Below the pieces are notes generated by a model. That model searched no databases and was not told the origin of the DNA. It saw only the letters and a program-made list of their open reading frames with translations. Made by a program: the position numbers and the translations under genes. Positions 30,239-47,111 of a stretch of 64,000 bases of DNA are shown here, piece after piece; position 1 is the first letter of the stretch, and the number at the start of each line of letters is the position of its first letter. The stretch comes from Arcicella aurantiaca. Its GTDB lineage: Bacteria; Bacteroidota; Bacteroidia; Cytophagales; Spirosomataceae. The DNA lies in the NCBI RefSeq assembly GCF_003148625.1, contig NZ_QGGO01000023.1, forward strand, positions 1-64,000, written 5' to 3'.

Positions 30239-31108
30239 TTAATGAAAACCATATTTAGTTAAACCTTGCTTACTAATTTTAAGGGCATCCATTGGTTGAA
30301 GTCCATCAAAAGTTTGGTCTTGTTCTACGATATAATATTTCATTCCAGAAAGTTTTTTATTCGCCAAAATTCTTTTGAAATCAATTGTTCCTTGTCCAAC
30401 TGGAGCAAAACGTTGTTGAGAATCCATATCTTTTACGTGCCAAATCTTGAAACGTCCTGGGTATCTTTTGAAATAAGCAACTGGGTCAGCTCCTGCTTTT
30501 GTTACCCAATACAAATCCATCTGAAAATTCACATATTTTGGGTCAAGATGCTCAAGCAAATAGTCGATTGGCACTACGCCATCTTGGTTTGCTTGAAATT
30601 CAAAATCATGGTTATGGTACAAAAACTCTAAACCAGCAGCGTGTGCCTTTACAGCCACAGTATTCAGAATTTCAGCCAATTTCTCCATTGTACCTTCCAT
30701 GCCCAACTTTCTTGTTTTTGGGTCGAATTTAAACATTCCCATTGGTGGAACTGGAGCAATAAAATACTTAAAACCAGCCGCTTTTACATCAGCTATTAAT
30801 TTATCCGCATTGTCGGTAGTCATAGACCCCATGTGAACCGAAATTGGTTGAAGTCCTAAACTTTTTAAATATGAATTAAATTCTTCAGGAGCCATTCCAT
30901 AAAACTTGCCATCTTTATAATCAACAGCCTCTATGTATTTGTAGCCCAAGTCTGCAACTTCTTTAAGGGTAGCTTTAGCATCTTTACCCATTTCAGCACG
31001 AACGGTGTAAAGGGTCATTCCTCCCCATTTTTTTTGTGCAAAAACAGACAAGCTCAATGACATCAAAATAGATAGACTTAGAAGTCTAAAAAAACGTGTA
31101 TTTCTCAT
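30239..31108 (-). CDS. Secreted sugar isomerase/epimerase-like TIM barrel
   Basis: 289 residues with a signal peptide (LLSLSILMSLSLSVFAQ), so it works in the periplasm. It is an AP-endonuclease-2-type TIM barrel. Metal-site residues are visible in EFLYHNHDFEF, NFQMDLYW, IWHVKDMD and YYIVEQDQT. Family relatives isomerise, epimerise or hydrate keto-sugars, and some cleave 3-keto-glycosides. Its promoter carries the NUDIX-type operator nine bases above a perfect -7 box. It is separated from the AraC gene by 287 bases, so it is its own transcription unit under a different regulator from the upstream operon. The substrate is unknown. Confidence 0.85.
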   Translation of the reverse strand: MRNTRFFRLLSLSILMSLSLSVFAQKKWGGMTLYTVRAEMGKDAKATLKEVADLGYKYIEAVDYKDGKFYGMAPEEFNSYLKSLGLQPISVHMGSMTTDNADKLIADVKAAGFKYFIAPVPPMGMFKFDPKTRKLGMEGTMEKLAEILNTVAVKAHAAGLEFLYHNHDFEFQANQDGVVPIDYLLEHLDPKYVNFQMDLYWVTKAGADPVAYFKRYPGRFKIWHVKDMDSQQRFAPVGQGTIDFKRILANKKLSGMKYYIVEQDQTFDGLQPMDALKISKQGLTKYGFH

Positions 31109-31161
31109 TTGATAAGGGTTTTAAATGGTACTCAAATATGATTATGTTCTTACTTCAAGGA

Positions 31162-31207
31162 CAAATGTAGGAATATAATTTTATTGTCTTAAAAAAAGAT
31201 AATAAAA
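31162..31207 (-). promoter_or_regulatory. Promoter and operator of the secreted isomerase gene
   Basis: On the minus strand TACATTTG (31162-31169) matches TAnnTTTG exactly. Nine bases further out is an imperfect palindrome, TTTTATTGTCTT, six bases, then AAGATAATAAAA (31179-31207 and the base beside it). It matches the operator at 28347 in 21 of 24 arm positions and has the same 6-base spacer and promoter distance. Confidence 0.7.
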
Positions 31208-31395: not shown

Positions 31396-32328
31396 TTAAG
31401 CATTAAATCCTATCATCCGATATTCGCTTGGCGACACACCCGTTTGAGCTTTGAAAAAACGCCCAAAACTACTGATTTCATTTCGCCCGATTTTACAGGC
31501 AATTTCTGAAATGTTTAAATTTGATTGTTTTAACAGAAATTTAGCTTCCAAAAGTAACATTTCATTCAGTACATCATGTGCCGATTTTCCAAGGGTGTTT
31601 TTTACACATTTATTCAAATGATTGGGGGAAATGGCTAATAATTCAGCATAATCAGAGACTTTTTGTTTGTCGTAAATATATTCAGCTAAATACTTTTTGT
31701 ACTGCTCAGTTATCAGAAATGCCGAATTGGAAGTGTTAGGGTTATCATTATTGGCAAAAGGCAGAATTTCAGTAAAAAGTGTCATCAAATACATCCTCAG
31801 GACGTTCATTCGGCATTTTTCACCTGTTTTGTATTCTAAAATAAGCCTATCGAGCAAGTGTAAAATATTACTTTTTGCCTCTTCATCAACCGTAATCGTT
31901 GGATTAGCGTTAAACTCTAAAAAAGTAAATTCGTTGATTAAGTCTTTAGTTTTATAGTCCACATTCAACAATTGCATATCAAAGTGGCAATAGTACCCTT
32001 CACTACCAGCACAAATTTCTTGATGTGTTGTAATTTGATAAGCAGGCAAAAAAAAGAAGGTGTTTTCTCCGAAATCGTAACTATTCAAACCTTTGCTTTT
32101 TATGCTCCGTCCTTTTGTCAAGAAAAAGAAACTGTACACCGATAACCTACGGGGTACAATATCGGCTTGGGTTGGAAAGGATACAATTTTCATATAATCT
32201 TCAACACGATTGATATGAAAATTAGAATGTATTTTGGTGGTAAAAGCCGTAAAATTATTAGACTCTTTGAAAAAATTAGTCTCAAGTTGAATTGCGTCTA
32301 AAATCGGGATATTACCACCTTCTAACAT
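31396..32328 (-). CDS. AraC-family transcriptional regulator
   Basis: 310 residues. The N-terminal half (about 40-185) is a cupin-like ligand-binding domain (GENTFFFLPAYQITTHQEI). The C-terminal 100 residues are two HTH units of AraC type (DYAELLAISPNHLNKCVKNTLG, then ISEIACKIGRNEISSFGRFFKAQTGVSPSEYRMIG). It starts nine bases after the stop of the GMC oxidoreductase gene and so probably ends that operon. It is the likely local activator of the catabolic genes, responding to a substrate or intermediate. Confidence 0.9.
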   Translation of the reverse strand: MLEGGNIPILDAIQLETNFFKESNNFTAFTTKIHSNFHINRVEDYMKIVSFPTQADIVPRRLSVYSFFFLTKGRSIKSKGLNSYDFGENTFFFLPAYQITTHQEICAGSEGYYCHFDMQLLNVDYKTKDLINEFTFLEFNANPTITVDEEAKSNILHLLDRLILEYKTGEKCRMNVLRMYLMTLFTEILPFANNDNPNTSNSAFLITEQYKKYLAEYIYDKQKVSDYAELLAISPNHLNKCVKNTLGKSAHDVLNEMLLLEAKFLLKQSNLNISEIACKIGRNEISSFGRFFKAQTGVSPSEYRMIGFNA

Positions 32329-32337
32329 TTGCTTATT

Positions 32338-33930
32338 TTATATTAATTGCGAAATTTTTTCTGATGAACGCACTGCCAAAGCTACGCTCACAAGAGTTGG
32401 ATTTGAGCTTGTTGCAATTGGAATTACGCCATTGCCACCTACAAATAGATTTTCAAAATTCCAGACTTGTGAGTAGGTATCACATACTGACTCCCCGTCA
32501 TTTTCTGTTCCCATTCGGGTTGTGCCTTCGTAGTGTAATGATGTACCTGGGGGCATTAGGGTTTGTCCGCCGTCTTTTATTTCTTTTCCAAACGAATTTA
32601 CTACTTTTTTCTGAAAAGCTTTTGCCGCCTCAATATTGGCTAAGTCTGTGTCTGAAAATTGAAATTTGAAGTTCATTTTCGGCATTCCGTAAAAATCTTT
32701 TTCTGTTTCTGAAAAAACAATTTGGTCTTCAAAATTAGATTCTTTCAAACATCCCCAACCCAAACCAACAATGTGTTTAGATTCATCGCTAACTGTGGTT
32801 TTCATGGGTGATAAATCCATGTGCATAATTTGACCATGAAAAGGATGATTTGGAGCATCAAAAGGCACCCAAAATACACCAACGGTTGGGTCGGGCGATT
32901 GACGACCCACAACTGACGATTGACGATTTGGGGCGAATTTACGCACTAAATCTTTGTCCAATTCTACAAAAGTGAACACAAAAGGGTGTTCGTTGAGGTA
33001 ATGCCCCAGTGCCTTCGGTCTGATGCCCGAAGCCCACAGTAATTGTGGAGTACGAAGTGGGTCAGCGGCTACAATAACGATTTCAGCCTCAATGGTTTCC
33101 TTTTTTCCTGATTGGATATGCTCAATTTCTGCTCCTGTGATTGAGAATTGATTATTGGTTATCGGATAATTGGGGTTTTCTGTTTTTTCCCCGTTTTCCA
33201 GTTTACCAATCACCAATCGCCTACAAATGGTTTCAGAACGAAGCTCAAAGTTTGGATTTTCAAGCGTATTACCTAAAATCACATCAGAAGCCGTCCAATA
33301 ACGATTTCCCGATTCATCAGTTTTACAAGCTAACGGCATGGGTTGTGCTTGACGATTTTCAGCGTGATTTGTCCCCAATGTTTGATTGAGAATATTCAAT
33401 ATAGCCTCACTTTCTGGCGAATTCGGAAAAGCTGATTGCGTTACATTCAAAATCTCTCTTGCTTTGGCAAGAGCTTCGTCCATTTCATTTTGTGGAATAA
33501 TGGTAATTTGTTCGCCTATTCCGGGAGTTGGGCAAGCACAAGTCCAATGAATTCCCATACCTCCGAGATTGGTTGACATCGAAATTGAAGGCATTTCGTT
33601 AGTTTTAATGTCTTCAATTTGGTCTAAAACTAAATGCGTGCCTGCTCTTGCCAAAATATCAGCACTAAGTTCGCCACGTTGCACCGCTATTGCCCGTTCC
33701 GCCACTGAAATCATCGGGTAAGGCGTTTTTTTAGGCCCTTGCGAAAGAATCTGAGCATTTTCCATCGCTTTTGGGTCAGCAATATTTTTAACGTGTTGCC
33801 CAATTTTATCTGAAACCTTGGGCCCAGCATCAATCATCACGATTTTTGCATGAGGTTTTTGCTTGGATAATGTACGAGCAAATGTTGCCCCAACTGGTCC
33901 AGAACCTATAATTAGAATATCAGTTTTCAT
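32338..33930 (-). CDS. GMC oxidoreductase, pyranose-2-oxidase family (candidate glycoside 3-oxidase)
   Basis: 530 residues. The FAD-binding ADP fold is at the N-terminus (DILIIGSGPVGATFART). NLGGMGIHWTCACPTP (H128) aligns with the flavin-attachment region GGMSTHWTCATP of pyranose 2-oxidase. The active-site pair is H466 in SLHYEGTTRMG and N510 in SSNPTLVSVALA, as in that family. Bacterial relatives oxidise the C3 hydroxyl of C-glycosides or free glucose. With the C-glycoside deglycosidase-like genes upstream, the inferred job is to make the 3-keto glycoside. No signal peptide is seen. Two low-complexity insertions (ENPNYPITNNQFSITG at about 251-266 and NRQSSVVGRQSPDP at about 335-348) are encoded by short DNA repeats. 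Confidence 0.85.
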   Translation of the reverse strand: MKTDILIIGSGPVGATFARTLSKQKPHAKIVMIDAGPKVSDKIGQHVKNIADPKAMENAQILSQGPKKTPYPMISVAERAIAVQRGELSADILARAGTHLVLDQIEDIKTNEMPSISMSTNLGGMGIHWTCACPTPGIGEQITIIPQNEMDEALAKAREILNVTQSAFPNSPESEAILNILNQTLGTNHAENRQAQPMPLACKTDESGNRYWTASDVILGNTLENPNFELRSETICRRLVIGKLENGEKTENPNYPITNNQFSITGAEIEHIQSGKKETIEAEIVIVAADPLRTPQLLWASGIRPKALGHYLNEHPFVFTFVELDKDLVRKFAPNRQSSVVGRQSPDPTVGVFWVPFDAPNHPFHGQIMHMDLSPMKTTVSDESKHIVGLGWGCLKESNFEDQIVFSETEKDFYGMPKMNFKFQFSDTDLANIEAAKAFQKKVVNSFGKEIKDGGQTLMPPGTSLHYEGTTRMGTENDGESVCDTYSQVWNFENLFVGGNGVIPIATSSNPTLVSVALAVRSSEKISQLI

Positions 33931-33973: not shown

Positions 33974-34477
33974 CTAAAACATCGGGTGCGGATTAACGGC
34001 TTTTTCGGGAATGGGTTGTAGCACATCCCAATGCTCTACAATTTTTCCGTCACTTAATCTATAAATATCAGCCACCGCACCGCCAAGTTGATTTTTATTC
34101 ATGCGACCGTGCAAATGAATAACCGCCATATCGCCATCTACTATGATTCGTTTTATATCAAAAATGGCATCAGGACTCGAAAATTTTGGTTTTAGAGCAG
34201 AAATAGCCGCTTCCCTCCCATCTAAAATATTCGGATTATGCTGAATATAATTTTCTGCAACATATTCCTTAAAAGCTTTTTCAACATCTTTTTGACGATA
34301 AAAAATATCTGCAAAATCCTCCATTATTTTTCGATTATGCTCAGTCATTTTTTTGTTTTTGTTTGGCTTTTCTGATAAATATTTAGCTTTTTTCGTTGCT
34401 TTATCCGATTCTACAACTTGAAAAGCGGAACTTATGAGCAAGAGAAAAATAGACCCTATTTTTAGGTAATTATTCAT
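33974..34477 (-). CDS. SnoaL-like (NTF2 fold) secreted protein
   Basis: 167 residues with a hydrophobic export segment (IGSIFLLLISSAFQVV). From about 48 (NRKIMEDFADIFYRQKDVEKAF) to the end it is a SnoaL-like cone fold: YVAENYIQHNP, GREAAISALKP, MAVIHLHGRM, ADIYRLSDGKIVEHWDVLQPIP. SnoaL-like enzymes perform aldol, cyclase, dehydration or isomerase chemistry on keto compounds. A role on a keto-sugar or aglycone fits the operon but is not proven. It starts three bases after the preceding stop and lies 43 bases before the GMC gene. Confidence 0.8.
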   Translation of the reverse strand: MNNYLKIGSIFLLLISSAFQVVESDKATKKAKYLSEKPNKNKKMTEHNRKIMEDFADIFYRQKDVEKAFKEYVAENYIQHNPNILDGREAAISALKPKFSSPDAIFDIKRIIVDGDMAVIHLHGRMNKNQLGGAVADIYRLSDGKIVEHWDVLQPIPEKAVNPHPMF

Positions 34478-34480
34478 CGT

Positions 34481-35347
34481 TTACAAATTTTTATCAATGC
34501 CAAGATAAGCGTTTAACAGAGCCTTTTCTCCTTCAATTCCATTGATAGAATTGTAATGTTCCATTCCGAAAATGAAGTTTTTTCCCGTTGCCTTCATTTT
34601 CTGATAAATATGTTTGAAAACAATATGATGATTGATTTCGCCCGTATTAGGTTCAAAACGTTGAGGGACATCGCCAATTTGGAAATAACCGATTTCGTCC
34701 CAAACTAAATCTATATTCCGTTGTAAATGCCCTTCATTTTGTTGTAAATGAAATAAATCAAACAGAATTTTACATGATGGGCTATCTACGGCTTTTGCCA
34801 ATAAATAGCATTGTGCCGACGTTTTAAGATATACTTGTGGCGGAAAACTCAGCGGTTCGAGTACCATCACCATACCATGTGGCTCAAAAATTTCGGCAGC
34901 TCTTTTAAGACATTCCAGCACATTTGCCGTTTGAATTTCATAAGGTAAAGTTATGTCAGCCGCATCGGGTACTACAGTTACAAATTTGCCATTGAGCCTT
35001 TTTCCTACTTCAACGGCTTGTCGGCATTTATCTAAAAATAGATTCCTCCATTCTACATTTCCTGAGGTAAAAGAAGCATTTGGAGGCCAATTTACAGGTC
35101 CCATCACAAACGTTCCCATTTCCATATTTAGGTCAGAAAGGGTTTTGCCGATTTTATCCAAATATTCTGGCGTTTGTCCGAGCATTCCAATTCCCATCAA
35201 ATTGGGCATGGGTACACCAGAAAAAGCGTTGTCTTCAAACGACTTAAATCCTAAATCGGCAGAATATTTAATTTGGTCAACAATATCACTTCCTGCCGAA
35301 GCAAATGAGCCAAAATGTGGGGCGTAATTGAGTTTAAAATTATTCAT
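34481..35347 (-). CDS. Hydroxypyruvate isomerase-like TIM barrel, copy 2
   Basis: 288 residues, no signal peptide. It matches the Hyi-like branch of the xylose-isomerase-like TIM barrels. The metal or catalytic glutamates are in MVLEPLSFPP and FGMEHYNS, the aspartate in ILFDLFHLQQNEG, and the loop GYFQIGDVPQRFEPNTGEIN is typical of hydroxypyruvate isomerases. It follows a clear paralogue (35351-36220) by three bases, so the pair arose by tandem duplication. They may be subunits of one complex or act in succession on a keto-sugar. The actual substrate is uncertain. Confidence 0.85.
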   Translation of the reverse strand: MNNFKLNYAPHFGSFASAGSDIVDQIKYSADLGFKSFEDNAFSGVPMPNLMGIGMLGQTPEYLDKIGKTLSDLNMEMGTFVMGPVNWPPNASFTSGNVEWRNLFLDKCRQAVEVGKRLNGKFVTVVPDAADITLPYEIQTANVLECLKRAAEIFEPHGMVMVLEPLSFPPQVYLKTSAQCYLLAKAVDSPSCKILFDLFHLQQNEGHLQRNIDLVWDEIGYFQIGDVPQRFEPNTGEINHHIVFKHIYQKMKATGKNFIFGMEHYNSINGIEGEKALLNAYLGIDKNL

Positions 35348-35350: not shown

Positions 35351-36220
35351 TTAAAAATTATCAGCTTGTTTGTATGCTTCTAATAAAGCTTTTTCACCTT
35401 CTATTCCATCAATTGAGTTGAAATGTTCCATTCCCAAAATAAAGTTTTTGTTGGTTGCTTTTGATTTTTGATGAATATGTTTGAAGATATTTTTGTAATT
35501 AATTTCACCTGTTCCAGGTTCACATCTTCCCGGTTCATCACCAATTTGAAAGTAACCTATTTCGTCCCAAACCATATCAATATGATAAATTAATCTCCCT
35601 TCATTTTTTTGAAGATGATACATATCAAATAATATTTTACAAGAATTCCTGTTTACAGCTTTACAAATCATATAGGCTTGGGCAGACGTTCTCAAAAATA
35701 ATTCGTGGTGGTCGGCAAGGGTTTCAATTGCCATGGTTACGCCAATCGGTTCAAAAATATCACAAGCTTTGCGAAGGGCATCAATCGCATTTGCCGTTTG
35801 CATTTCGATGGGTAACGAACGGTCGAAACAGTCCAAAGTAATGGTAACAAACTTGGCATTCAGCCTTTTGGCAACCTCTACCGCACTTCTGCATTTGTTT
35901 AAAAATTCTTCTTGGTATTCAGGTTTACCCGATGTTACTAATTCAATGGGTGGCCATTTGGTTGGGGTAATTACGAAAGTTCCCATTTCCATGCCTCTTT
36001 TTGCTAAGGTTTCGCCAATTTTATTCAACATTTCGGGCGTTTGGCTACACATTCCGATACCCATGCGAGTGGAATTAAAACTTACCAAAGGAGATACAAA
36101 ACCACTGTCTTCGAGTGCTTTAAAACCCAAATCAGCCATATAATTAATTTGGTCGATGGGGTCTTTTCCTGCCGAATGCGTAAATGAACCTATATGTGGG
36201 GCGTATTTGAGATTGAACAT
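35351..36220 (-). CDS. Hydroxypyruvate isomerase-like TIM barrel, copy 1
   Basis: 289 residues, clearly paralogous to the next gene: YAPHIGSFTHSAGKDPIDQINYMADLGFKALED opens both proteins in recognisable form. Metal ligands are E in MAIETLADHHELF, D in ILFDMYHLQKNEGR, and E in LGMEHFNS; the loop GYFQIGDEPGRCEPGTGEIN is conserved. It lies in a tight minus-strand operon with the SnoaL-like and GMC genes. Upstream, a short-repeat tract and an opposite-strand gene separate it from the rest of the locus. Confidence 0.85.
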   Translation of the reverse strand: MFNLKYAPHIGSFTHSAGKDPIDQINYMADLGFKALEDSGFVSPLVSFNSTRMGIGMCSQTPEMLNKIGETLAKRGMEMGTFVITPTKWPPIELVTSGKPEYQEEFLNKCRSAVEVAKRLNAKFVTITLDCFDRSLPIEMQTANAIDALRKACDIFEPIGVTMAIETLADHHELFLRTSAQAYMICKAVNRNSCKILFDMYHLQKNEGRLIYHIDMVWDEIGYFQIGDEPGRCEPGTGEINYKNIFKHIHQKSKATNKNFILGMEHFNSIDGIEGEKALLEAYKQADNF

Positions 36221-36226
36221 TTTGGT

Positions 36227-36345: not shown

Positions 36346-36389
36346 ATTTGGAATATTTAATTAACTATGAGAATCTACTACTTTTAACT

Positions 36390-36752: not shown

Positions 36753-36755
36753 GGG

Positions 36756-37341
36756 TGTTTATTGAGGATTTGATTTTTTTGAGGATGTGAGGAGATGAGG
36801 ATTTGAGGAGATGATTTTTTGAGGATGTGAGGAGATGAGGATTTGAGAATGTGAGGAGATGAGGAGATGAGGATTTGAAGATGTGAGGATTTGAAGATGT
36901 GAGGATTTGAGGAGATGAAGATGTGAGGATTTGAAGATGTGAGGATTTGAGGAGATGAAGATGTGAGGATTTGAAGATGTGAGGATTTGAAGATGTGAGG
37001 AGATGAATAAACTTAATATTTGAATATTTCACTAAATGTTCAAACCTACCAAATCCTCAAAAAGTCATCTACCAAAATCCTCAAAAAGTCAAATCCTCAT
37101 CTCTTCACATCCTCAAAAAATCAAATCCTCATCTCCTCACATCCTCAAAAAATCATCTCCTCACATCCTCAAAAAATCATCTCCTCACATCCTCAAAAAA
37201 TCATCTCCTCACATCTTCAAAAAATCAAATCCTCACATCCTCAAAAGAAATCATCTCCTCACATCCTCAAAAAAAATCAAATCCTCACATCCTCAAAAGA
37301 AATCAAATCCTCACATCCTCAAAAAATCAAATCCTCAATAA
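36756..37341. repeat. Facing octamer arrays, pair 1
   Basis: 36756-37013 reads GA-rich on the plus strand (GAGGATGT, GAGGAGAT, GAGGATTT, GAAGATGT in 8-bp register). 37047-37341 reads CT-rich (ATCCTCAA, AAATCCTC, ATCTCCTCAC), that is, the same octamer on the other strand. The right array runs through the last codons and TGA of the neighbouring gene. There is no convincing gene; long frames here translate only to low-complexity peptides such as SSHPQKI. Confidence 0.85.
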
Positions 37342-38305
37342 TTCTCTTCCATAATTTATGCTGTTTTTCCACTTGGTCGAAAGCATCAAACTCATCCGTA
37401 AATGCCGAACCTTCATATTCTGACGAAATATATCCTTTGTATCCGCCTTCGGTAAAAACTTTGAAAATAGCAGGATAATCAATTGAAGGTTCGTCTCCGT
37501 TTTCGTCAAAACCATAAAATTTGCCGTGAACGTGAACTACATAAGGCATGATTTCTTTCCAATTTTCCACAGGTTGGCGACCGTTCATGCTAAATGCCAT
37601 ATTCAAACGCCCAATTTGTGGTGGAGTAGCTCCCAAAGGCATTAATGTTTGAGCTAATTCTCCAAATTTGGCAGGTGTCGGAATATCTTTGTGCCAAATT
37701 TCTTTGGTTACGGCAATCATTTCATCCGTTACGCCCGAAGCTTTAAAACTGGTCAATAGTGCCTCTGGAATAGCACGCATACAAGTACCCATATCAGGTA
37801 CAAAACCCAAAACGTTTGTTTGCATTTGTCCGAACATTTCCACCATATTAATGACCGAAGGGTGGTCTGTACTGTATGGTGTATGCAATTCGATACCCAT
37901 GACGACATTGGCTTTTTCGGCAAAAGGAACAAGTTTTTGATAGACTTCGGCAGGGGCAGTTGTCTGACAACGAAGAATTGGAAAACCTAACTTTTGAGCT
38001 GCTAAAATTTGCGGCTTGATGTATTCTACGGTTTCATCAATACTCATTTTTGCGTGGCGTTTGATACCCACATCAATATTGGCATCTAATGCAACGGGTT
38101 CAAATTCGTATTTTTGAAGTAGGTTTTTTACCTCTTTTTCTGTTTCGTTTGAAATATGCGGAAAGCCTCTAAGGCTTTGAAAACCAATAATTTCCAAACC
38201 TGTACCTAAACCTCTTTTTCGAGTTTCGGCAATTACGTCTTCTAATGTATATTTTCCTGAGTTCCATTCATAAGCGTAAGAAAACAGGGAAGTTGCAAGT
38301 TTCAT
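37319..38305 (-). CDS. C-glycoside deglycosidase alpha-subunit-like TIM barrel, pair 2
   Basis: 328 residues, no signal peptide. The metal site reads E in GIELHTPY, D in LGFVPDMGTC, H in VVHVHGKFYGF and E in GYISSEYEG. The HVHGKF and SSEYEG combination resembles alpha subunits of C-glycoside deglycosidases (DgpB/CarB type), which cleave the C-C bond of 3-keto-C-glycosides together with a small beta subunit. A beta-like gene (38729) lies upstream across an octamer array. The last codons (EDLIF and TGA) are formed by the octamer repeat itself. A plain sugar isomerase remains possible. Confidence 0.8.
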   Translation of the reverse strand: MKLATSLFSYAYEWNSGKYTLEDVIAETRKRGLGTGLEIIGFQSLRGFPHISNETEKEVKNLLQKYEFEPVALDANIDVGIKRHAKMSIDETVEYIKPQILAAQKLGFPILRCQTTAPAEVYQKLVPFAEKANVVMGIELHTPYSTDHPSVINMVEMFGQMQTNVLGFVPDMGTCMRAIPEALLTSFKASGVTDEMIAVTKEIWHKDIPTPAKFGELAQTLMPLGATPPQIGRLNMAFSMNGRQPVENWKEIMPYVVHVHGKFYGFDENGDEPSIDYPAIFKVFTEGGYKGYISSEYEGSAFTDEFDAFDQVEKQHKLWKRIIEDLIF

Positions 38306-39124: not shown

Positions 39125-39236
39125 TTTTTGAGTATTTGAGTATTTGAGGATTTGAGGATTCGAGGATATGAGATATGAGGATTCGAGAATGTGAAGATAA
39201 AATCACATCTTCATATTCTCGCATCCTAATATTCTT
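39125..39236. repeat. Facing octamer arrays, pair 3 (short)
   Basis: 39126-39197 has GAGTATTT, GAGGATTT, GAGGATAT and GAGAATGT units. 39204-39236 has ATCTTCAT, ATTCTCGC and ATCCTAAT units on the other polarity. It is the smallest of the facing arrays and ends at the stop codon of the gene at 39235. Confidence 0.8.
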
Positions 39237-40158
39237 AACTATAAATTGTACTTAATTCACTATCAATATAATACCTTGTCAGAGCCATTGAAGCAAGTAG
39301 GTCTGGCGTGCCGTCGGTTTCTACTGTTACCCAACCTTTAAACTGATGTTTTTTCATTAACTCATATAAGCCTTTGAAGTCTAAAACACCTTCACCGGGT
39401 TCCCAAAACCAACGTGTGCCATCGTCCACAATTTCAATATCCTTACTGTATCTGATTTCATCGGGTAAGTTTGGCGTTGCGGTATCTTTCAGGTGGAAAG
39501 TACAGATTCGGTCGTGATAATCGTCATAAAACTTAACCATATCTTCGCCCAATAATGCCACTTGGGCAGTATCAAGGCAATAATGTACATATCTCGGGTC
39601 TGTCAATTCAAGATATTCTCTGTGATTTTCTTTGTTGATAGCTAAGAAAAACTCATTGTGAATACCAATTTGTACGCCTTTATCAGTAGCATATTTTCCT
39701 ACTTCTGTTATGATTTCGGCAGCGGCTTTTATTTGGTCACGACTCAAAGGACCAAGTCCATGATAGTTATTGATAGGAGCTGCATTGAGTTGTGTTCCGC
39801 CAAATTCTACCAATAAATCTATGGCTTGTTTGCCGTCTTCAAAGGTTTGCTTGTGATGAGTACGGTCGTGAGCTTTATCTATCAAATGAAAAACTCCGCT
39901 TACTTCTACACCACGCTCATTGGCAAAGTCTTTGAAGGCTTTTGCCGAACCAAAAAGGGGTAACATTTCTGGAAAATCCCAAGGAGCAAGTTCAATACCA
40001 TTGAAACCTAATGCTTTTTGATAGCGTAAAATTCTGTCCCAATCCGTATAATATGCCGAATTGGTTTTGTCTTCATAATAGAACTCTCTGAAATTATCAA
40101 TCCTTTGGTAAGGAATGTTTTTCCAGTGATTCATGTGTGAATATTTGATATTGTTCAT
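39235..40158 (-). CDS. Sugar isomerase/epimerase-like TIM barrel with complete metal site
   Basis: 307 residues from MNNIKYSHMNHWKNIPYQ; the ATG at 40134 (MNHW) is also possible. Metal ligands are E in GIHNEFFLA, D in HYCLDTAQV, H in TFHLKDTATP and E in GWVTVETDGT, so the site is complete. No signal peptide. The frame continues 111 codons further upstream through the octamer array (ILKSSNPQ-type peptide); I treat that as non-coding readthrough because it is pure repeat and family members start near MNHW. It probably acts on a keto-sugar released by the deglycosidases. Confidence 0.85.
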   Translation of the reverse strand: MNNIKYSHMNHWKNIPYQRIDNFREFYYEDKTNSAYYTDWDRILRYQKALGFNGIELAPWDFPEMLPLFGSAKAFKDFANERGVEVSGVFHLIDKAHDRTHHKQTFEDGKQAIDLLVEFGGTQLNAAPINNYHGLGPLSRDQIKAAAEIITEVGKYATDKGVQIGIHNEFFLAINKENHREYLELTDPRYVHYCLDTAQVALLGEDMVKFYDDYHDRICTFHLKDTATPNLPDEIRYSKDIEIVDDGTRWFWEPGEGVLDFKGLYELMKKHQFKGWVTVETDGTPDLLASMALTRYYIDSELSTIYS

Positions 40159-40162
40159 TCTG

Positions 40163-40745: not shown

Positions 40746-40746
40746 A

Positions 40747-41700
40747 TTACTGTTCTTTTATCACCTTATTTAAAAAATGTCTGCTTCTCAACAAAGCCCT
40801 CATCGGTTCACGGGTTTGGCGACAACTTACTATTGCCCAACCATTGTAATTAACTGATTGTAGTGTTTGGTGGAATTCTTCCAAATTGGTATTTCCAAAA
40901 CCTAAATCTTTGAAAACTTGCGTGGCACAATGTTGAGGATATTCGGGCAGAGGCGTTTTCCAAGTTTCGTTATCATCTGAAAATGAGGTATCTGTCAAAT
41001 ATACACTCCCAATTTTATTGGCATTTTTTCTTAGTATTTCAGCAGTATTTTGCTTGGCAATATCAATATTGGCGGCATCAAAATTCAATAAAATAGAATC
41101 ATCAATTTGTGATAAAAACCCTTGATAATCTTGATTTCTGAGTACAGACCAATATTCATTTCTTAGCGAAATTTTAATGCCTTTTTCTTGAGCAACTTTG
41201 GCAAAACCATTCAATAGTTCGATAGTTCCTCTGGTAAATTCAGTTTCCCAATTTGGATTCTTTTGATGATAATGTTGAACTAAACCATAAGGTGGCGTAG
41301 GGGTAATGGTAATATAGTCACAACCCAAATCAGCCGCATATCGGATAGATTCACCGCCAAAATACCCCGAAGCTCCAAAATAAAAATCAAGGTTTTCGTT
41401 TCGCATAAAAATGCTTGGATTGAAATGAATTCCCGCCACTTTTTCAATCCCGTTTGCTTGTAAATGCTTCACGAAATTGGCAACAGTTTCAAATTTAAAA
41501 TCCACACAATATTTGGTAAAAGGCACTCCAGAACCACCTCTGAATATCCAGAATGGGTCGAAAGGTATCTCAACCGCTTTAAAACCTGCCGCTGAAATCA
41601 TTGGATAAAGTTCGTCCCAATAATATTTGCTTTCGTAGCGGTTACGGTTGGGTTCTTGGTGATGAATATTCACCATGTCAAGACTTATTCCTATTTTCAT
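40747..41700 (-). CDS. Xylose-isomerase-like TIM barrel with altered metal site
   Basis: 317 residues, no signal peptide. It opens MKIGISLDMVNIHHQEPNRN and follows the TIM-barrel isomerase pattern. E (ISLRNEYW) and D (LLNFDAANID) are kept. The usual histidine strand reads VYLTDTSF and the final glutamate strand reads AIVSCRQTREP, so two of the four usual ligands appear lost. It may bind substrate differently, serve as a non-catalytic partner, or use other residues. It lies in the operon between beta-like gene 41930 and the longest octamer array. Confidence 0.75.
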   Translation of the reverse strand: MKIGISLDMVNIHHQEPNRNRYESKYYWDELYPMISAAGFKAVEIPFDPFWIFRGGSGVPFTKYCVDFKFETVANFVKHLQANGIEKVAGIHFNPSIFMRNENLDFYFGASGYFGGESIRYAADLGCDYITITPTPPYGLVQHYHQKNPNWETEFTRGTIELLNGFAKVAQEKGIKISLRNEYWSVLRNQDYQGFLSQIDDSILLNFDAANIDIAKQNTAEILRKNANKIGSVYLTDTSFSDDNETWKTPLPEYPQHCATQVFKDLGFGNTNLEEFHQTLQSVNYNGWAIVSCRQTREPMRALLRSRHFLNKVIKEQ

Positions 41701-41929: not shown

Positions 41930-42304
41930 TTAAAGCGATATAGTTTTGGGTACGGCAAAGCGTGTAGCGGGAAAAGGTAAATAGCCAATTCTAAGTACCA
42001 TTTTCAAATCTACGGTATGCTCACCTGAGGCAAAACCGCCTTCTTTTTTTACGGAAAGTATAGCATCGTCAACCATTTCCCAACGTTCTTCGAGTTCGTT
42101 TTCTCGCTGTTCTGTGTTATAGGTTTTGCCGTTTACGATAATCATTACATCGTTGTGTGGCAAAGTTTCGCCATCAACTTTTACTTCAATTTCTTCTATC
42201 ATAGAAAGCGAAACACCTCTGTAATAGGGAAGTCTGGCTGCAATTTCAAAGCCTTCTTCAGTTTTTTTAGCCTTTTCAGGCACAATCATATATTTTTCGT
42301 ACAT
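41930..42304 (-). CDS. C-glycoside deglycosidase beta-subunit-like protein (DUF6379), pair 1
   Basis: 124 residues, no signal peptide. LPYYRGVSLSMIEEIEVKVDG, then VNGKTYNTEQRENELEERW, then GEHTVDLKMVLRIGYLP: the first block is the hallmark of DUF6379 beta subunits of C-glycoside deglycosidase (DgpC/CarC type). In characterised enzymes this beta-sandwich subunit pairs with the TIM-barrel alpha subunit and shapes the substrate pocket. Its alpha-like partner lies 115 bases upstream in the same operon, the canonical arrangement. Confidence 0.88.
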   Translation of the reverse strand: MYEKYMIVPEKAKKTEEGFEIAARLPYYRGVSLSMIEEIEVKVDGETLPHNDVMIIVNGKTYNTEQRENELEERWEMVDDAILSVKKEGGFASGEHTVDLKMVLRIGYLPFPATRFAVPKTISL

Positions 42305-42419: not shown

Positions 42420-43397
42420 CTAAATAAGTCTTTTAAGCATTTCCTGATGTCTTCTCACTTGCTCTACACTATCAACTTCGTAAATATCTTGAATATGACG
42501 ATTCCCTTCGTATTCTGAGGCGATGTAACCATTGAAGCCACCTTTTTTCAACACATCAACCACCTCTTTGTACGGAATACTGTACTCGGTATAGTCTTCC
42601 AACATTTCAAGGAATTTACCGTGAATGTGAATGATTCTATCAATATGAGGCACTAAACTGATAGGATTCACGTAGGTATTGTGGCGTGAAAGTTCGGCAA
42701 CTGCCATATCTATACGTTTGTTACTCATGCGGGAAACTTCGTAAATGGTGTATTCTGCCATCACTCCTTTTTCGTGTTGCTCGCACACAAATTTGGCAAT
42801 TTCGGGGTCAGCACCTTGCCGAATCAATCGGTCAACTTGTACACGTGGCAAACGCTGAGTGAAACCTCCCATATCTGGAATAAAACCAAAATGCTTTGTA
42901 CCCGTTTTTTCCATTACCTCCCAATGTTTTGCCATCCAAGCAGAGTTAATATTCCAAGGAGCGTGTACTTCAATGCCCAATTTAACATCGTGGTCTTCGG
43001 CAAAAGGAATTACCTTTTCCATGATTTGGGGCGTGGTGTTTACGATAACTCGAATTATCTTAAAACCCAATTTATGAGCAAAACGAATATCTTGTTTGAA
43101 AGACTCAACCGCTTCATCATCAGACCAATAATGTCCTTTTTTCTTGGTATAATCTAAGAACATATCATGAGCCACTGGCGTAACCTTGTATTTATCCATC
43201 CAACCAAACCATTGGTCAACGAAAGCATCAGAAGGTAATTTAGGACAGTTTGCAACACTCTGCTCGCCTATTAATTCAATTCCTGTTGCTCCTGTGGCAG
43301 CAGCAGCAGCAATACAATCTTCAAGAGTCATTTTTCTTTGAAAATATTCATCTTGATAGCTGTAAAGACTTACAGCACGTTTTATTAAATTGCTCAT
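42420..43397 (-). CDS. C-glycoside deglycosidase alpha-subunit-like TIM barrel, pair 1
   Basis: 325 residues, no signal peptide. The metal site reads E in LGIEVHAPWNIN, D in FGFIPDMGGFTQR, H in IIHIHGKFLEML and E in YIASEYEGNRH. GIEVHAP, PDMGGF and EYEGNRHIQD match DgpB/CarB-type alpha subunits closely. With the beta-like protein next door it should cleave a 3-keto-C-glycoside to the aglycone and an unsaturated keto-sugar. It lies 42 bases after the MFS transporter gene. The gap to the beta gene holds short GGTTATTG-type repeats of opposite polarity at its two ends. Confidence 0.87.
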   Translation of the reverse strand: MSNLIKRAVSLYSYQDEYFQRKMTLEDCIAAAAATGATGIELIGEQSVANCPKLPSDAFVDQWFGWMDKYKVTPVAHDMFLDYTKKKGHYWSDDEAVESFKQDIRFAHKLGFKIIRVIVNTTPQIMEKVIPFAEDHDVKLGIEVHAPWNINSAWMAKHWEVMEKTGTKHFGFIPDMGGFTQRLPRVQVDRLIRQGADPEIAKFVCEQHEKGVMAEYTIYEVSRMSNKRIDMAVAELSRHNTYVNPISLVPHIDRIIHIHGKFLEMLEDYTEYSIPYKEVVDVLKKGGFNGYIASEYEGNRHIQDIYEVDSVEQVRRHQEMLKRLI

Positions 43398-43439: not shown

Positions 43440-44609
43440 TTATTCTTTGTCAAAAATATAGTTTACAACCACCATCACCAGACAGATTACGCCAAATACT
43501 ACGAAGGCATTGAGAATATCGCCCGTTACATTTCTAACAAAACCCACTACAAAAGGCGACACCGAAAGACCAAGAAAAAAACCGCTACTCCAGATACCCA
43601 TACCACGTCCTCTATATTCGGTAGGAACTGACCTCAACCCGAAAGCTATGAGTACAGGAATTGCCATTCCGCAACCTATTTGCTGAATAATAGCACTTGT
43701 CATTACTGAACTTAAATTGGTGGAAATTCCTACGCCAATAAGTCCAATACCAATCATTGAAAACATTAAACCAAACTGAATTCGGTTGCTTTTTGTACCT
43801 AATAATTTGAATAACACAGCTCCTAATGGAAGCATCAAACTGGCAACTGCCGTGATTTTACCTACTTCTTTTGGGTCGGAAATACCAATTTTATCTAAGG
43901 CAAGCGAAAAATGAAGCGTGTAAACGTAATAAAGCACAGAAGCTATAAAAGTGGTAAAGAATACTTTTACCAATGCTTTTTGGGAAAATTGGAAGTTTCC
44001 ACTTTGTACGTTGGCAACCGATGGAGCTTTTTGCGTTGGTTCAAAAATAAAGAAATATGCACCGATAGGAATAACAAGCGTGACAGCATAAAGCAAAAAT
44101 GGATATTGCCAACCTATTGAAGCGAGTTGTCCGCTACCTGTTATTACGAAAAAACCAAACACAGGCCCGATAATACTCTGAATCATCAACCAAGTATTTC
44201 TTTTGCTTTGCTCGAAATAATCACCCAAAAGAATATTTGAAATGGTAAGAATGAAGGCTTCGCCGATGCCTAAAATAAGTCGCCCAACGATTAAAGCACT
44301 AAAACTTTCTACAAAAAATGGGATAACACCGCCAATTCCGTAAAGAATTGAGAAAATGATTAACAATTTTCTACGACCAATTTTATCCGCTAAAAAACCC
44401 GCATACGGGCCAAATAATGCTACGCACAAACCCGGTGCCGAAATCACAAAAGGGGCTAATGTTTCGATGTAAGGCACATCTTTAAAATGATTTCTCAAAG
44501 TGGGTACAACAGGCATTAGCGTAATAACCGCCATCATGGGCAATATACTGACCAAAACAATGATAATTCCTTGTGGTATCCCGGCTGTTCGTGTTTGTGT
44601 ATTTGTCAT
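43440..44609 (-). CDS. MFS transporter
   Basis: 389 residues with about 12 hydrophobic segments. GFLADKIGRRKLLIIFSILYG is the MFS loop 2-3 signature, and GLRSVPTEYRGRGMGIWSSG the equivalent in the second half. It starts 51 bases after the TonB receptor stop and precedes the alpha-like deglycosidase gene. The probable role is inner-membrane uptake of the glycoside or sugar that the receptor brings across the outer membrane. Specificity cannot be read from sequence. Confidence 0.9.
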   Translation of the reverse strand: MTNTQTRTAGIPQGIIIVLVSILPMMAVITLMPVVPTLRNHFKDVPYIETLAPFVISAPGLCVALFGPYAGFLADKIGRRKLLIIFSILYGIGGVIPFFVESFSALIVGRLILGIGEAFILTISNILLGDYFEQSKRNTWLMIQSIIGPVFGFFVITGSGQLASIGWQYPFLLYAVTLVIPIGAYFFIFEPTQKAPSVANVQSGNFQFSQKALVKVFFTTFIASVLYYVYTLHFSLALDKIGISDPKEVGKITAVASLMLPLGAVLFKLLGTKSNRIQFGLMFSMIGIGLIGVGISTNLSSVMTSAIIQQIGCGMAIPVLIAFGLRSVPTEYRGRGMGIWSSGFFLGLSVSPFVVGFVRNVTGDILNAFVVFGVICLVMVVVNYIFDKE

Positions 44610-44660
44610 ATTATTGGAAAAATGTTAAAACCGTAGGGGAATTGTTAGTTCCCCACACAA

Positions 44661-47111
44661 TTATTTGAGAAAATGGTAATTCAATTGAGCACCCATCAAT
44701 CGTGGTGTACCAAAAATCCAGTTATAGATATTAATAGTACCTCCATTAAATGATGAATAAGTAATAATGCGATTATCTTCAAGATTTTGAGCAAACAAGC
44801 CTACATCAAATTTTCCTCCTTTGGCGGTATAAGTAATGTTAAGGTCTGTTTTGGTATAAGACGGTTGTTTATCCATCTCATAATTAAAGGCTGTGGTATA
44901 ATAATTAGATTTGAATAAGGTCTGAATACCTGCATTCAACACGCCACTACCTATTTTAAAATCATGGTTATAGCCTGCCGTAATAGTTACTTTTGGAGCC
45001 ATTGGAGCTACCTTTCCTGTTAAATCTACGTTTCTGACATCTCCATTTACCACATTGGCAACTGTTTTTAATTCTGAATAAGTGGCATCTAATAAATTTA
45101 CTGAAAACTTGAATCTATCTGCTTTTGAAGCCACATATTCTCCGTCAATTTCTAAACCATTAACGCTACTAACTCCCGCATTTTGAATTGCCCCACCAAT
45201 AGCCGTTGAGATAAAAATACTTACTTGTTGATTTTTGTAGTCATAATGGAAAGCCGAAGCATTCAAGCGAAGTTTGTTATTGGCAAATTTGTTTTTAGTA
45301 CCAATTTCATAAGCCGTAAGGTCTTCTGGATTGTACTGCCCTAAATTGTCAAATCCACCTGCTTTGTAACCTGTGCTAACTTTGGCAAATAACATTTTAT
45401 TAGCATCCATTTTATATTCAAGTCCCAAAAGCCAAGTAGTTCTATTCCAGCTTCCTTCAGTCGGGATTCCTTCAAAAGGCTTCATGCCAGCTTGGGTAGC
45501 GGAAGTAGGTGCATTTGGATAAAAGAATCTGATAATTGACGGAGGACCAAACGGTGCCGAAGCAAGATTACCCCCACCCAATTTTTTTGTATCAGTTGTA
45601 TTTCTTAAACCAAGTGTTAAACCCAATTTTTCACTAACGTTATAAGTAGCCTGTGCAAAAACTGCCGATGTTTTAGAGCTAACATCTCTGATAAAAAAGT
45701 TCAGAAAAGGAATTTGCCCGCCAAAAGCTCCTGCCGCAGATGGTAAAAACAAACCACGTTTGGTCAATTGGTCTTCGTTGCCATAAAAACCACCTAATTG
45801 CCAGATTAATTTAGAAGACTCACCATTCAAACGAAGTTCATGACTTTGCGTATTTACACCAATATCATTATAAAAACTGAATGTTTCTGGCACAAAACCG
45901 TTTAGGGGTTGATAACCCGTCATGGATACTTTGCGAGTTCCGCCTGAGTAAGTTAGCGTTGCTTTCCCAAAATCATAAGCCATTTTACCTCTTAGTGCCG
46001 ACTGGTCTATTTTCATAAAACCTGTTGTAGCGACTGGATAATCATTAGGCAAACTGATAGTCCAATTGGTAGGTTCTTTGCCCTTTAAATCTGTAACAGT
46101 ACCCATATTTACGCCATATTGAGACGGTGCCTGTTGGTCTGTTTTATTTATTTCTCCAGCGATATAAACTGATAATGCTTTGGCAGGATTGAGCGACAAA
46201 CCCAAACGTGCTGCATACATATTTCCGTTATCTATTTTTCCAACTAATGCACCACCATCACGATAACCATCATGTTTTGATAAAATACCTGCGGCACGAA
46301 TTGCGGCAATTTTACCCAATGGTAAATTGACCATTCCATTTAATTTCAATGAGTTGTAGTTTCCATAACTCATTCCTAAATCAGCTTCGAGCGTTTGTGT
46401 TGGTTTTTTCGCAACAATATTTACTGCACCAGCCGTGGCATTTCTACCATACAATGTTCCTTGAGGGCCTTTCAAAACTTCCACACGGTCAAGGTCAAAC
46501 ATCGAAGCATTCAATGCTATGGGTCTGTTTAAATATTCTCCATCAATTCCCACTGTTACGGCTTGGTCAGAAAGTTCAGCCGCACCTTGATTACTACCTA
46601 CACCCCGTACATTTATTTGATTAAAAACGGTATTAGTGATAATATTAAGACTCGGAGCAATATTTTGTAATTGAAGTAAATCCGTAATACCTTGTTTCTG
46701 AATGTCTTTGCCACGTACCAAATCCATCGTAATAGGTACTCGTTGTGCAGAAACCGAACGATTTTCAGCCGTTACAACTACTTCTTCTAAACTTGCTAAG
46801 GCTTCATTCAACGAAATGTTAATCGTTTTTTGGTCGCCAATTATACTTTCTTGTAATTCATATCCTACAAATGAAAAAATCAAGATTTGATTTTTTCGAA
46901 CATCAATTGTAAAAACTCCTTCTCTATTCGTGGTTGTCCCTTTGTTTGTGCCTTTAATAATGACACTAACTCCTGATAATTTTTCGCCACTATTGGCTGA
47001 AACTGTACCCGTAATGTTTTGGGCATAAAGTAATTTGCTGGTAAGCAATAAAAACAATAAATTCAGCATGATACTATGCCGATTTCTGTAAATTGAAAGA
47101 GTTTTTTTCAT
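44661..47111 (-). CDS. TonB-dependent receptor (no SusD partner)
   Basis: 816 residues. Signal segment (MLNLLFLLLTSKLLYAQ), a CarboxypepD_reg-like domain about 30-110 (GEKLSGVSVIIKGTNKGTTT), a TonB-box region EEVVVTAENRS, a plug with VRGVGSNQGAAELSD and LKGPQGTLYGRNATAGAVNI, and a barrel ending in LNYHFLK. It resembles FecA/sphingomonad-type receptors for small ligands such as plant phenolics rather than SusC; no SusD follows. It heads the catabolic operon, so its likely ligand is the glycoside itself. A -7 box and an inverted repeat lie upstream. Confidence 0.92.
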   Translation of the reverse strand: MKKTLSIYRNRHSIMLNLLFLLLTSKLLYAQNITGTVSANSGEKLSGVSVIIKGTNKGTTTNREGVFTIDVRKNQILIFSFVGYELQESIIGDQKTINISLNEALASLEEVVVTAENRSVSAQRVPITMDLVRGKDIQKQGITDLLQLQNIAPSLNIITNTVFNQINVRGVGSNQGAAELSDQAVTVGIDGEYLNRPIALNASMFDLDRVEVLKGPQGTLYGRNATAGAVNIVAKKPTQTLEADLGMSYGNYNSLKLNGMVNLPLGKIAAIRAAGILSKHDGYRDGGALVGKIDNGNMYAARLGLSLNPAKALSVYIAGEINKTDQQAPSQYGVNMGTVTDLKGKEPTNWTISLPNDYPVATTGFMKIDQSALRGKMAYDFGKATLTYSGGTRKVSMTGYQPLNGFVPETFSFYNDIGVNTQSHELRLNGESSKLIWQLGGFYGNEDQLTKRGLFLPSAAGAFGGQIPFLNFFIRDVSSKTSAVFAQATYNVSEKLGLTLGLRNTTDTKKLGGGNLASAPFGPPSIIRFFYPNAPTSATQAGMKPFEGIPTEGSWNRTTWLLGLEYKMDANKMLFAKVSTGYKAGGFDNLGQYNPEDLTAYEIGTKNKFANNKLRLNASAFHYDYKNQQVSIFISTAIGGAIQNAGVSSVNGLEIDGEYVASKADRFKFSVNLLDATYSELKTVANVVNGDVRNVDLTGKVAPMAPKVTITAGYNHDFKIGSGVLNAGIQTLFKSNYYTTAFNYEMDKQPSYTKTDLNITYTAKGGKFDVGLFAQNLEDNRIITYSSFNGGTINIYNWIFGTPRLMGAQLNYHFLK

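Follow-up and report, generated by a model that had tools for sequence, protein, structure and literature searches.

Two gene pairs of the C-glycoside-deglycosidase type in a probably plasmid-borne cluster of Arcicella aurantiaca

The genome of Arcicella aurantiaca (5.93 Mb, 70 contigs) harbors on contig C23 (92,493 bases) a cluster of genes for sugar-oxidizing, TIM-barrel, and transport proteins, which raises the question of which glycosides it serves to degrade and by which steps. The window analyzed here comprises bases 1-64000 of this contig. A first-pass annotation, made from the sequence alone, had read the cluster as an oxidize-then-eliminate glycoside catabolic locus; all the genes it named were recovered in the open reading frame (ORF) map and the Pfam scan, which confirmed the observation, and the interpretation was supported by the analysis below. 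The locus is likely a mobile, probably plasmid-borne cluster for aryl (flavonoid/xanthone-type) C-glycosides, of the kind that combines a C-glycoside oxidase with C-glycoside deglycosidases (CGDs). On the minus strand, from 47111 to 31396, the genes are arranged in the order TonB receptor, MFS, alpha1, beta1, iolE2, iolE1, beta2, alpha2, TIM_A, TIM_B, SnoaL, GMC, and AraC (Table 1). The intergenic gaps are 3-51 bp from the TonB receptor gene to alpha1 and from TIM_A to AraC, and 110-1098 bp from alpha1 to TIM_A; the reading frames of the cluster are open.

The deglycosidase pairs and the oxidase

For the small proteins beta1 and beta2, a comparison with DUF6379 had been proposed. Both were found to match this family, PF19906 (CGDB, C-glycoside deglycosidase beta subunit), with 116 and 44 bits, respectively, above the curated cut-off of 27.6, and they were the only matches to this family at E <= 0.001 in the whole genome; none was obtained in 14 control genomes (0/14). 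The best solved relatives of pair 1 were the CGD alpha chain 8qvc_A for alpha1 and the chains 8umc_B (E 4.7e-20) and 8qvc_B (E 4.9e-20) for beta1, and those of pair 2 were the AgCGD2 alpha chain 7dnm_A and AgCarC2 7dnm_B. Alpha1 and alpha2 are only 32% identical to each other, and E147, H149, D179, H269, K271, E305, and E307 (AgCGD2 numbering) were identical in both. In AgCGD2, E147, D179, H269, K271, and E305 are reported as metal ligands (Mn site), with H149 and E307 as the catalytic His and Glu (PMC8563793). Replacement of Tyr39 by Phe in the PuCGE beta subunit is reported to lower 3-keto-C-glucoside cleavage about 10^4-fold and that of the 3-keto-O-glucoside 2.4-fold (PMC10628242). At the PuCGE Tyr39 position, beta1 has Y28, aligned opposite DgpB Y39, and beta2 retains the Tyr in a WYR motif, matched by motif to the WYR of AgCarC2. 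The earlier view of the alpha proteins as CGD-like is in agreement with their best solved relatives and with the tree described below, and the possibility that they are simple epimerases was excluded by these relatives, the retained residues, and the tree position. By these sequence tests, pairs 1 and 2 are CGD-type pairs, predicted to cleave C-glycosides.

The GMC protein, with Pfam domains GMC_oxred_C/N, was closest among solved structures to 8qve, titled 'Pyranose oxidase', followed by PsG3Ox (7qf8). As counted on the alignment, its H466 and N510 correspond to H440 and N484 of PsG3Ox, two residues at which substitution with Ala abolishes activity (PMC10646112). Against the pyranose_ox model TIGR02462 it scored 216 bits, below the cut-off of 545. 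The GMC enzyme is predicted to be a glycoside 3-oxidase, the C3 position being taken from characterized relatives.

Phylogenetic analysis of the alpha subunits was based on 38 of 40 collected sequences, the other two being incomplete; G148 was not among them, and two fused Arthrobacter proteins were represented by their C-terminal 345 residues. The nine Bacteroidota alpha1 rows formed one branch (support 93/90, not starred), nested in a 14-row branch with 8qvc, Deinococcus aetherius, and three Sphingomonad copies (100/98), in which the 8qvc alpha is nearly identical to the D. aetherius alpha. The seven Bacteroidota alpha2 rows also formed one branch (99/99). A 100/99 split placed 25 rows, among them the alpha1 type and PuCGD, opposite the 13 rows of alpha2, AgCGD2, Arthrobacter, and the second Sphingomonad copies; the tool warned that long branches were joined on the side of AgCGD2. 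Pair 1 is thus placed with the Deinococcus-type CGD and pair 2 on the AgCGD2 side.

This placement bears on the position at which the sugar is attached. AgCGD2 took a single substrate, a C8-glycoside, and AgCGD1, MtCGD, and MiCGD acted mainly on C6-glycosides; Met249 distinguishes AgCGD2 from the C6-type enzymes, which have Ala or Gly there (PMC8563793). In the Met249 column, Met was found in 7/7 Bacteroidota alpha2 rows and Ile in the second Sphingomonad copies. DaCGD, for its part, reportedly prefers C6-glucosyl flavones and mangiferin. Judging from the nearest characterized relatives and one specificity residue, alpha1/beta1 may cleave C6-glycosides and alpha2/beta2 C8-glycosides.

The number of paralogues had also been thought to exceed that of known clusters. 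This did not hold, as several dgpBC clusters are reported in Catenibacillus (PMC11170127) and several CGD-type genes lie on an Arthrobacter plasmid stretch, and paralogue number was discarded as a mark of novelty. On the Arthrobacter plasmid (L044:825-3624), ORFs of 431 and 492 amino acids match beta and alpha and look like fused CGD proteins, accompanied by several more CGD-type genes; the solved chain 8qrz (435 amino acids) was likewise matched by a beta query and by an alpha query. In G070, a third and divergent CGDB protein was seen at L030:8412-8795 between two AraC genes; in the map, no alpha gene adjoins it directly.

Distribution among relatives and the aromatic-ring module

Searched with alpha1, the genome contigs yielded 16 loci. 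Ten Bacteroidota alpha1 loci were compared (the window, L012, L013, L014, L015, L016, L017, L019, L027, and G148); L022 was left out as too short (3.2 kb), G017 because its alpha is distant, and G440 because its CGDB match is weak. Both pairs were present in 8/10. The order alpha1-beta1-beta2-alpha2 was found in L012 (Lacihabitans soyangensis KCTC23259), L014, L015 (Confluentibacter flavum), L016 (Paraflavisolibacter caeni), L027, and G148; the window and L013 have the same pair order with iolE2-iolE1 between beta1 and beta2, and Runella aurantiaca YX9 (L019) and Ferruginibacter (L017) show alpha1-beta1 only. Gene order was kept in loci from at least three families, and an orthologous GMC oxidase accompanied the pairs in eight of the ten loci. 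CGDB itself is rare, being found in 6/119 near genomes and in 4/395 genomes spread over Bacteroidota (own genome included in both counts, and one of the four matches weak).

Identities within the cluster did not follow the relatedness of the genomes as measured by RpoB (G148 not covered). G005 is 98% identical to A. aurantiaca in RpoB (568-residue part) and only 69% in alpha1; the values for G006 are 96% in RpoB, 82% in alpha1, and 45% in MFS. The Runella genome (G038, of the window's own family) shows 81% in RpoB, 90% in alpha1, 90% in MFS, and 85% in GMC, and Confluentibacter shows 70% in RpoB, 81% in alpha1, and 80% in iolE1. Since these identities conflict with RpoB descent, horizontal transfer is the simplest reading, and the cluster probably moves horizontally. 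Relatives were also found in 23 of 72,556 plasmid records, from Novosphingobium, Sphingobium, Croceicoccus, Deinococcus, Arthrobacter, Enterococcus, Niallia, and Pantoea.

In several relatives, the CGD cluster adjoins genes of a set of five, here called the module, whose products are of the types double-glyoxalase-fold protein (VOC), FrsA-like alpha/beta hydrolase, FAD_binding_3 monooxygenase (FMO), FAH hydrolase, and 'cyclase'. They were counted at E <= 1e-15 in nine Bacteroidota sister stretches, i.e., L012, L013 (with L030/L039), L014 (with L029), L015, L016, L017, L019 (with L032/L033), L027 (with L034/L035), and G148 (with L079/L080). Two to five module genes lie beside the CGD genes in 6/9: all five in L013, L014, and L015, four in L016, VOC and hydrolase in L012 (where the stretch ends), and cyclase and VOC in G148, with the hydrolase about 15 kb off on the other side. 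The genomes of L019 and L027 (G038 and G005) have module genes on another contig, and the module hydrolase is present in 8/9 sister genomes. Outside Bacteroidota, all five genes were found in L020, L021, and L026 (Bacillaceae: Neobacillus, Bacillus) and in L040 (D. aetherius), so that aromatic-ring genes adjoin CGD in stretches from three phyla; at the same threshold, L018, L023, L024, L025, L041, L044, and L046 had no module genes and L042 had weak matches only. A short-chain dehydrogenase (SDR) gene like C32:406-1173 (67-85%) occurs near the TonB end in L012, L013, L014, and L016.

In A. aurantiaca itself, genes for SDR, VOC, hydrolase, FMO, and FAH stand in a row at C32:406-6770 (VOC 73% identical to that of L014, hydrolase 78%, FMO 62% to that of L015), the cyclase gene (81%) is at C29:53910-54665, and amidohydrolase, acyl-CoA synthetase, and crotonase genes are near the C32 module. 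The VOC protein scored 209 bits against the catechol 2,3-dioxygenase model (cut-off 320) and therefore counts as a relative and not as a catechol dioxygenase under this model. In Variovorax, the ifc isoflavone cluster, to which A-ring cleavage is ascribed, combines an FMO like FdeE and a glyoxalase-fold protein like FdeC with an alpha/beta hydrolase akin to a C-C hydrolase (PMC11069340). As the enzyme families are the same, the aglycone is read as a flavonoid-like aromatic, which favours aryl C-glycosides as substrates of the cluster. Among the near genomes, the hydrolase occurs in 5/6 of those bearing CGDB vs. 16/113 without it (Fisher p 0.0006, own genome counted and kinship ignored). C-glycosides, which the first-pass annotation had named as possible substrates, become probable because the beta Tyr is retained in both pairs and because aromatic-ring catabolic genes occur near the clusters of relatives and on other contigs of the own genome.

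Further genes, the replicon and the repeat arrays

Table 1. Features of the cluster and of the replicon in the window (positions in the 64,000-base stretch).
Feature	Coordinates	Strand	Support
TonB-dependent outer-membrane receptor	44661..47111	-	Pfam Plug, TonB_dep_Rec_b-barrel, CarbopepD_reg_2
MFS transporter; would act in inner-membrane uptake	43440..44609	-	MFS_1 E 3.3e-37
alpha1: CGD alpha subunit 1, DaCGD-type	42420..43397	-	8qvc_A E 5.4e-111; 7/7 catalytic/metal residues
beta1: CGD beta subunit 1 (DUF6379)	41930..42304	-	PF19906 E 9.9e-34
iolE2: IolE-related TIM barrel, metal site apparently incomplete	40747..41700	-	PF01261 E 6.4e-16
iolE1: inosose-dehydratase-like TIM barrel	39235..40158	-	TIGR04379 76.7 bits
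beta2: CGD beta subunit 2 (DUF6379)	38729..39124	-	PF19906 E 2.2e-11; 7dnm_B E 5.1e-8
alpha2: CGD alpha subunit 2, AgCGD2-type	37319..38305	-	7dnm_A E 2.0e-66; 7/7 catalytic/metal residues
TIM_A: hydroxypyruvate-isomerase / ketose-3-epimerase-like TIM barrel	35351..36220	-	PF01261 E 6.1e-27
TIM_B: TIM_A paralogue	34481..35347	-	PF01261 E 1.8e-23
SnoaL-like protein, perhaps exported (N-terminus by eye)	33974..34477	-	SnoaL_2 E 7.3e-13
GMC: predicted glycoside 3-oxidase (sugar C3 oxidation)	32338..33930	-	8qve E 1.4e-134; PsG3Ox 7qf8 E 2.8e-105
AraC-family regulator	31396..32328	-	Pfam HTH_18; 9 bp from GMC gene
Probably exported 3-keto-beta-glucopyranoside-1,2-lyase-like TIM barrel	30239..31108	-	8tcd_B E 1.4e-41
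Plasmid replication initiator Rep3	53826..54842	+	Pfam Rep3_N/Rep3_C
ParA-type partition ATPase	56028..56972	-	Pfam AAA_31 E 6.8e-54

Besides the two alphas, the window encodes five TIM barrels of PF01261: iolE1, iolE2, TIM_A, TIM_B, and the lyase-like protein at 30239-31108. The ORF at 39235-40491 is over-long and runs into an 8-bp repeat array; the likely iolE1 gene starts with the ATG at 40158 and codes for 307 amino acids. Neither iolE1 nor iolE2 (36.6 bits) reached the 290-bit cut-off of the IolE equivalog TIGR04379. Of the residues that we take to be the IolE metal ligands, iolE1 retains the Glu-Asp-His-Glu set in 5/5 homologues aligned; iolE2 is without the last Glu in 5/5 and without the His in the three Bacteroidota ones. 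The two genes were adjacent in all five stretches opened (window, L013, L015, L042, and L043), two of which were opened among six plasmid records with an iolE2 match; in L042 they are about 9 kb from a CGD pair. The iolE2 protein had no sequence match in the PDB at E <= 0.01, and its model, built with 3 sequences, was of middling confidence (mean pLDDT 63.5), so that its matches to IolE, epimerase, and 3-keto-lyase-type folds give the superfamily only; AtHYD (8ro4_A) ranked 33rd amid many IolE-like folds. PF01261-type proteins carry out elimination and hydration in the levoglucosan and A. tumefaciens pathways (PMC10066097, PMC10628242). By this analogy, hydration is assigned to iolE1, a candidate 2-hydroxy-3-keto-glucal hydratase, which iolE2 may assist as a partner without catalytic function.

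TIM_A and TIM_B (59.6% identical) look like keto-sugar isomerases/epimerases. TIM_A scored 103.6 bits against TIGR03234 (cut-off 353), and its model (mean pLDDT 84.4) matched hydroxypyruvate-isomerase-like and ketose 3-epimerase folds, naming no substrate; its relatives on Sphingomonas and Catenovulum plasmids adjoin DUF1080 and GMC/gluconate-dehydrogenase-subunit genes. SnoaL homologues were found in the L015 and L027 clusters. Across the ten Bacteroidota loci, iolE1/iolE2 occurred in 3, TIM_A-type genes in 4, and SnoaL in 3, and these genes are therefore regarded as accessory. Judged by eye, the protein at 30239-31108 begins like a signal peptide; it matches 8tcd, 3-Keto-beta-glucopyranoside-1,2-Lyase AL1. 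It was the best match of no ORF of the Bacteroidota sister stretches and may not belong to the system.

The TonB receptor had been described as lacking a SusD partner, which agrees with its nearest scanned neighbors, the MFS gene and another outer-membrane barrel (48319-50709). Its homologues stand at the same cluster end in L013 (79%), L014 (67%), L015 (54%), and G148 (54%). The MFS protein is 90% identical in Runella and only 43-47% in four other sister loci.

The link to a plasmid origin was borne out as probable. The window carries Rep3 and ParA genes, relatives of the Rep3 initiator being found on Spirosoma and Runella plasmids (24-28% identity in the best 5 rows), and the two ends of C23 are mutually matching 231-base repeats on the same strand (best piece 94.5% over 218 bases); no exact overlap of the ends was found over 15-400 bases. 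Because of the matching end repeats and the Rep3 and ParA genes, C23 probably represents a circular plasmid with a size of about 92.5 kb. It also encodes an alpha-L-rhamnosidase, GH2, two TonB/SusD sets, GH88, GH97, a heparinase-II/III-like protein, and GH127. Beside ParA, the ORF at 54972-56015 contains a 69-bp tandem repeat (2.6 copies, 55348-55525) and has no Pfam match; it is possibly ParB-like.

The operon spacers 36221-37338, 38318-38716, 39127-39198, and 40163-40738 are filled by 8-bp-periodic arrays (TTTGAGGA type). Three of them are convergent pairs, a C-free arm followed on the plus strand by an almost G-free arm, and as operon-strand RNA they would form giant hairpins (z -10.0, -14.1, and -22.9; 100 shuffles each). 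A pattern search of the own genome gave 92 forward and 60 reverse array matches vs. 0 for a reversed-pattern control, and a plus array followed by a minus array was seen, among the matches listed, also on C1, C3, C4, C7, and C13. In L013, only short related arrays (4-5 copies) are present, after beta1 and before beta2, flanking iolE2-iolE1. The 8-bp arrays are perhaps a repeat family of this genus. Between the repeat arrays, a 23S-rRNA-intervening-sequence (PF05635) gene lies inside the operon at 36348-36752 on the plus strand; the genome has 12 such genes, of which 6/12 have an array of period <=24 within about 1.5 kb, vs. 4/31 own-genome control stretches. Contig C32 carries a pair of 7/14-bp arrays (L053:9978-10337) of apparently opposed units (TAGAGAA, then CTCTATCATCTATT).

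Proposed route, alternatives and known systems

In the proposed route, the glycoside would be imported by the TonB receptor and the MFS carrier, and the GMC enzyme, recognizable by its family and catalytic residues, would oxidize the sugar at C3, as its characterized relatives do. The alpha1/beta1 and alpha2/beta2 pairs would then cut the sugar-aryl C-C bond by beta-elimination to give the aglycone and 2-hydroxy-3-keto-glucal, possibly at C6-type and C8-type positions, respectively. IolE1, perhaps with the metal-poor iolE2, may hydrate the glucal, and TIM_A/TIM_B may isomerize or epimerize the resulting keto-sugar. Breakdown of the aglycone could follow an A-ring route, as modeled on fde/ifc, with a monooxygenase, an extradiol dioxygenase, a C-C hydrolase, an FAH hydrolase, and a cyclase encoded on C32 and C29, and expression is presumably regulated by AraC. 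The first-pass annotation had spoken of a complete route, which holds only in part: no 3-keto-sugar reductase was seen in the cluster, and the aglycone genes lie outside the window. A further proposal is that alpha1/beta1 strips the C6 sugar and alpha2/beta2 the C8 sugar of 6,8-di-C-glycosyl flavones (vicenin-2/schaftoside type), one oxidase serving both, and that the pairs together with the A-ring-cleaving module are a mobile package exchanged among Bacteroidota, with parts shared with Bacillaceae and Deinococcus. It is offered tentatively, as a possibility rather than an expectation; an open-licence literature search for bacterial deglycosylation of di-C-glycosides gave only barley metabolomics (by title).

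Several observations weigh against the C-glycoside reading. The orthologous GMC oxidase is absent from the Confluentibacter (L015) and Ferruginibacter (L017) stretches, which have only distant GMC matches, and a 3-keto-glucose reductase was not seen in the cluster. The stretches L017, L019, and L027 hold no module genes, the L017 genome gave no match to the module hydrolase, and in G017, which belongs to the same family as the window's genome, CGDB is accompanied by a distant alpha only and the module hydrolase is missing. The hydrolase is found in 21/119 near genomes (E <= 1e-60) as compared with 6/119 for CGDB; being commoner than CGD and occurring also without it, the module must serve something besides C-glycosides. 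For the C6 assignment in particular, the Met249 column holds His in 9/9 alpha1 rows and not the C6-type Ala/Gly. Finally, PuCGE is reported also to cleave 3-keto-O-glucosides (PMC10628242) and PurA also to oxidize O-glycosides (PMC12724307), and O-glycosides could therefore be natural substrates too. Taken further, the cluster would act mainly on plant O-glycosides, with the GMC enzyme making 3-keto-O-glucosides, the CGD-like pairs and the exported lyase eliminating them, and C-glycoside cleavage as a side activity. The lyase homologue 1.2 kb from the GMC gene and the rhamnosidase, GH2, GH88, GH97, and GH127 genes on the same contig fit this possibility, which is nevertheless considered unlikely: no counterpart of the lyase appeared among the sister stretches, both pairs retain beta subunits and the Tyr linked to C-glycoside cleavage, whereas the O-specific AtOGE is described as having no beta subunit (PMC10628242), and aromatic-ring genes adjoin CGD in stretches from three phyla.

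The second pair invites a different question. The low identity of the two alphas, the co-occurrence of the pairs in 8/10 loci, and the weaker PF19906 match of beta2 would suit a duplicated CGD turned into a dedicated later-step enzyme, e.g., a glucal hydratase, instead of a second deglycosidase. However, none of the catalytic/metal residues checked is changed in alpha2, which also has the Met of AgCGD2 at position 249; AgCGD2, the closest solved relative of alpha2, deglycosylates a C8-glycoside (PMC8563793), and the IolE-type proteins of the window could provide hydration, though they are not in all sister loci; such a change of role appears rather improbable. That the cluster is a transferred set of duplicated, partly broken copies hardly used by its host is more doubtful still and has very little probability in our estimate. 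The operon spacers are split by large repeat arrays and the intervening-sequence gene, CGDB is rare (4/395 Bacteroidota genomes), and iolE2 seems to have lost metal ligands; against this, the reading frames are open, the catalytic residues of both alphas are intact, and the gene order is kept across at least three families. The cleavage of aryl C-glycosides by both pairs remains the preferred interpretation.

C-glycosides are quite stable to chemical and enzymatic treatment (PMC8563793), and the work reported in the available parts of the CGD studies ends at aglycone release. On the sugar side of the pathway, which is poorly understood, the cluster offers enzyme pairs together with candidate hydratases and isomerases. 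With the two cleaving-enzyme types combined in one transferable unit, seen near ring-cleavage genes in stretches from three phyla, isolated enzymes become a testable hypothesis of the full pathway.

The structures 8qve and 8qvc/8qvd/8umc, which we take to be solved chains of the Deinococcus C-glycoside cluster (DaCGO1 and DaCGD), provide the nearest solved relatives of the window's GMC (8qve), alpha1 (8qvc_A), and beta1 (8qvc_B/8umc_B) proteins. In the D. aetherius stretch, aglycone-type genes follow; in contrast to the window, with its two pairs, TonB/MFS transport, and further TIM barrels, that stretch has one alpha/beta pair and an ABC importer. The Novosphingobium/Croceicoccus plasmid clusters resemble the window in combining both alpha types on a single plasmid (pNL2, PP1Y Mpl), a TonB receptor and, in Croceicoccus, the iolE1-iolE2 pair, and differ in gene order, a GPH symporter, and DUF1080/ThuA proteins. 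Alpha2/beta2 is nearest to AgCGD2 of Arthrobacter globiformis, a species in which C6- and C8-type CGDs (AgCGD1/AgCGD2) are already known, as is CarABC in Microbacterium (PMC8563793); these are Actinobacteria, whereas the loci that showed an alpha1-beta1-beta2-alpha2 unit together with TonB are from Bacteroidota. The DgpABC/DfgABCDE systems of gut Firmicutes share the oxidize-then-eliminate principle and an alpha with a DUF6379 beta subunit, but oxidation there is by the Gfo/Idh/MocA-type DgpA and not by a GMC oxidase (PMC8563793, PMC11170127). The fde (Herbaspirillum) and ifc (Variovorax) clusters are likened by family to C32 in their FMO, glyoxalase-fold dioxygenase, and alpha/beta C-C hydrolase; unlike the present case, no CGD is mentioned in the accessible portions of these reports (PMC11069340, PMC11303751). 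In the PurABC puerarin system, an FAD oxidase similarly precedes a CGD, with a single pair, and Bacteroidota homologues are listed, which excludes a claim of a first occurrence in this phylum; Bacteroidota gene order or an aglycone module is not described in the part of that report available (PMC12724307). Hence, the kind of pathway, PurABC homologues in Bacteroidota (PMC12724307), and multi-copy and plasmid-borne CGDs are already known, and what is new is a conserved double-pair version, apparently passed between species, with aglycone-module genes beside the CGD genes in relatives.

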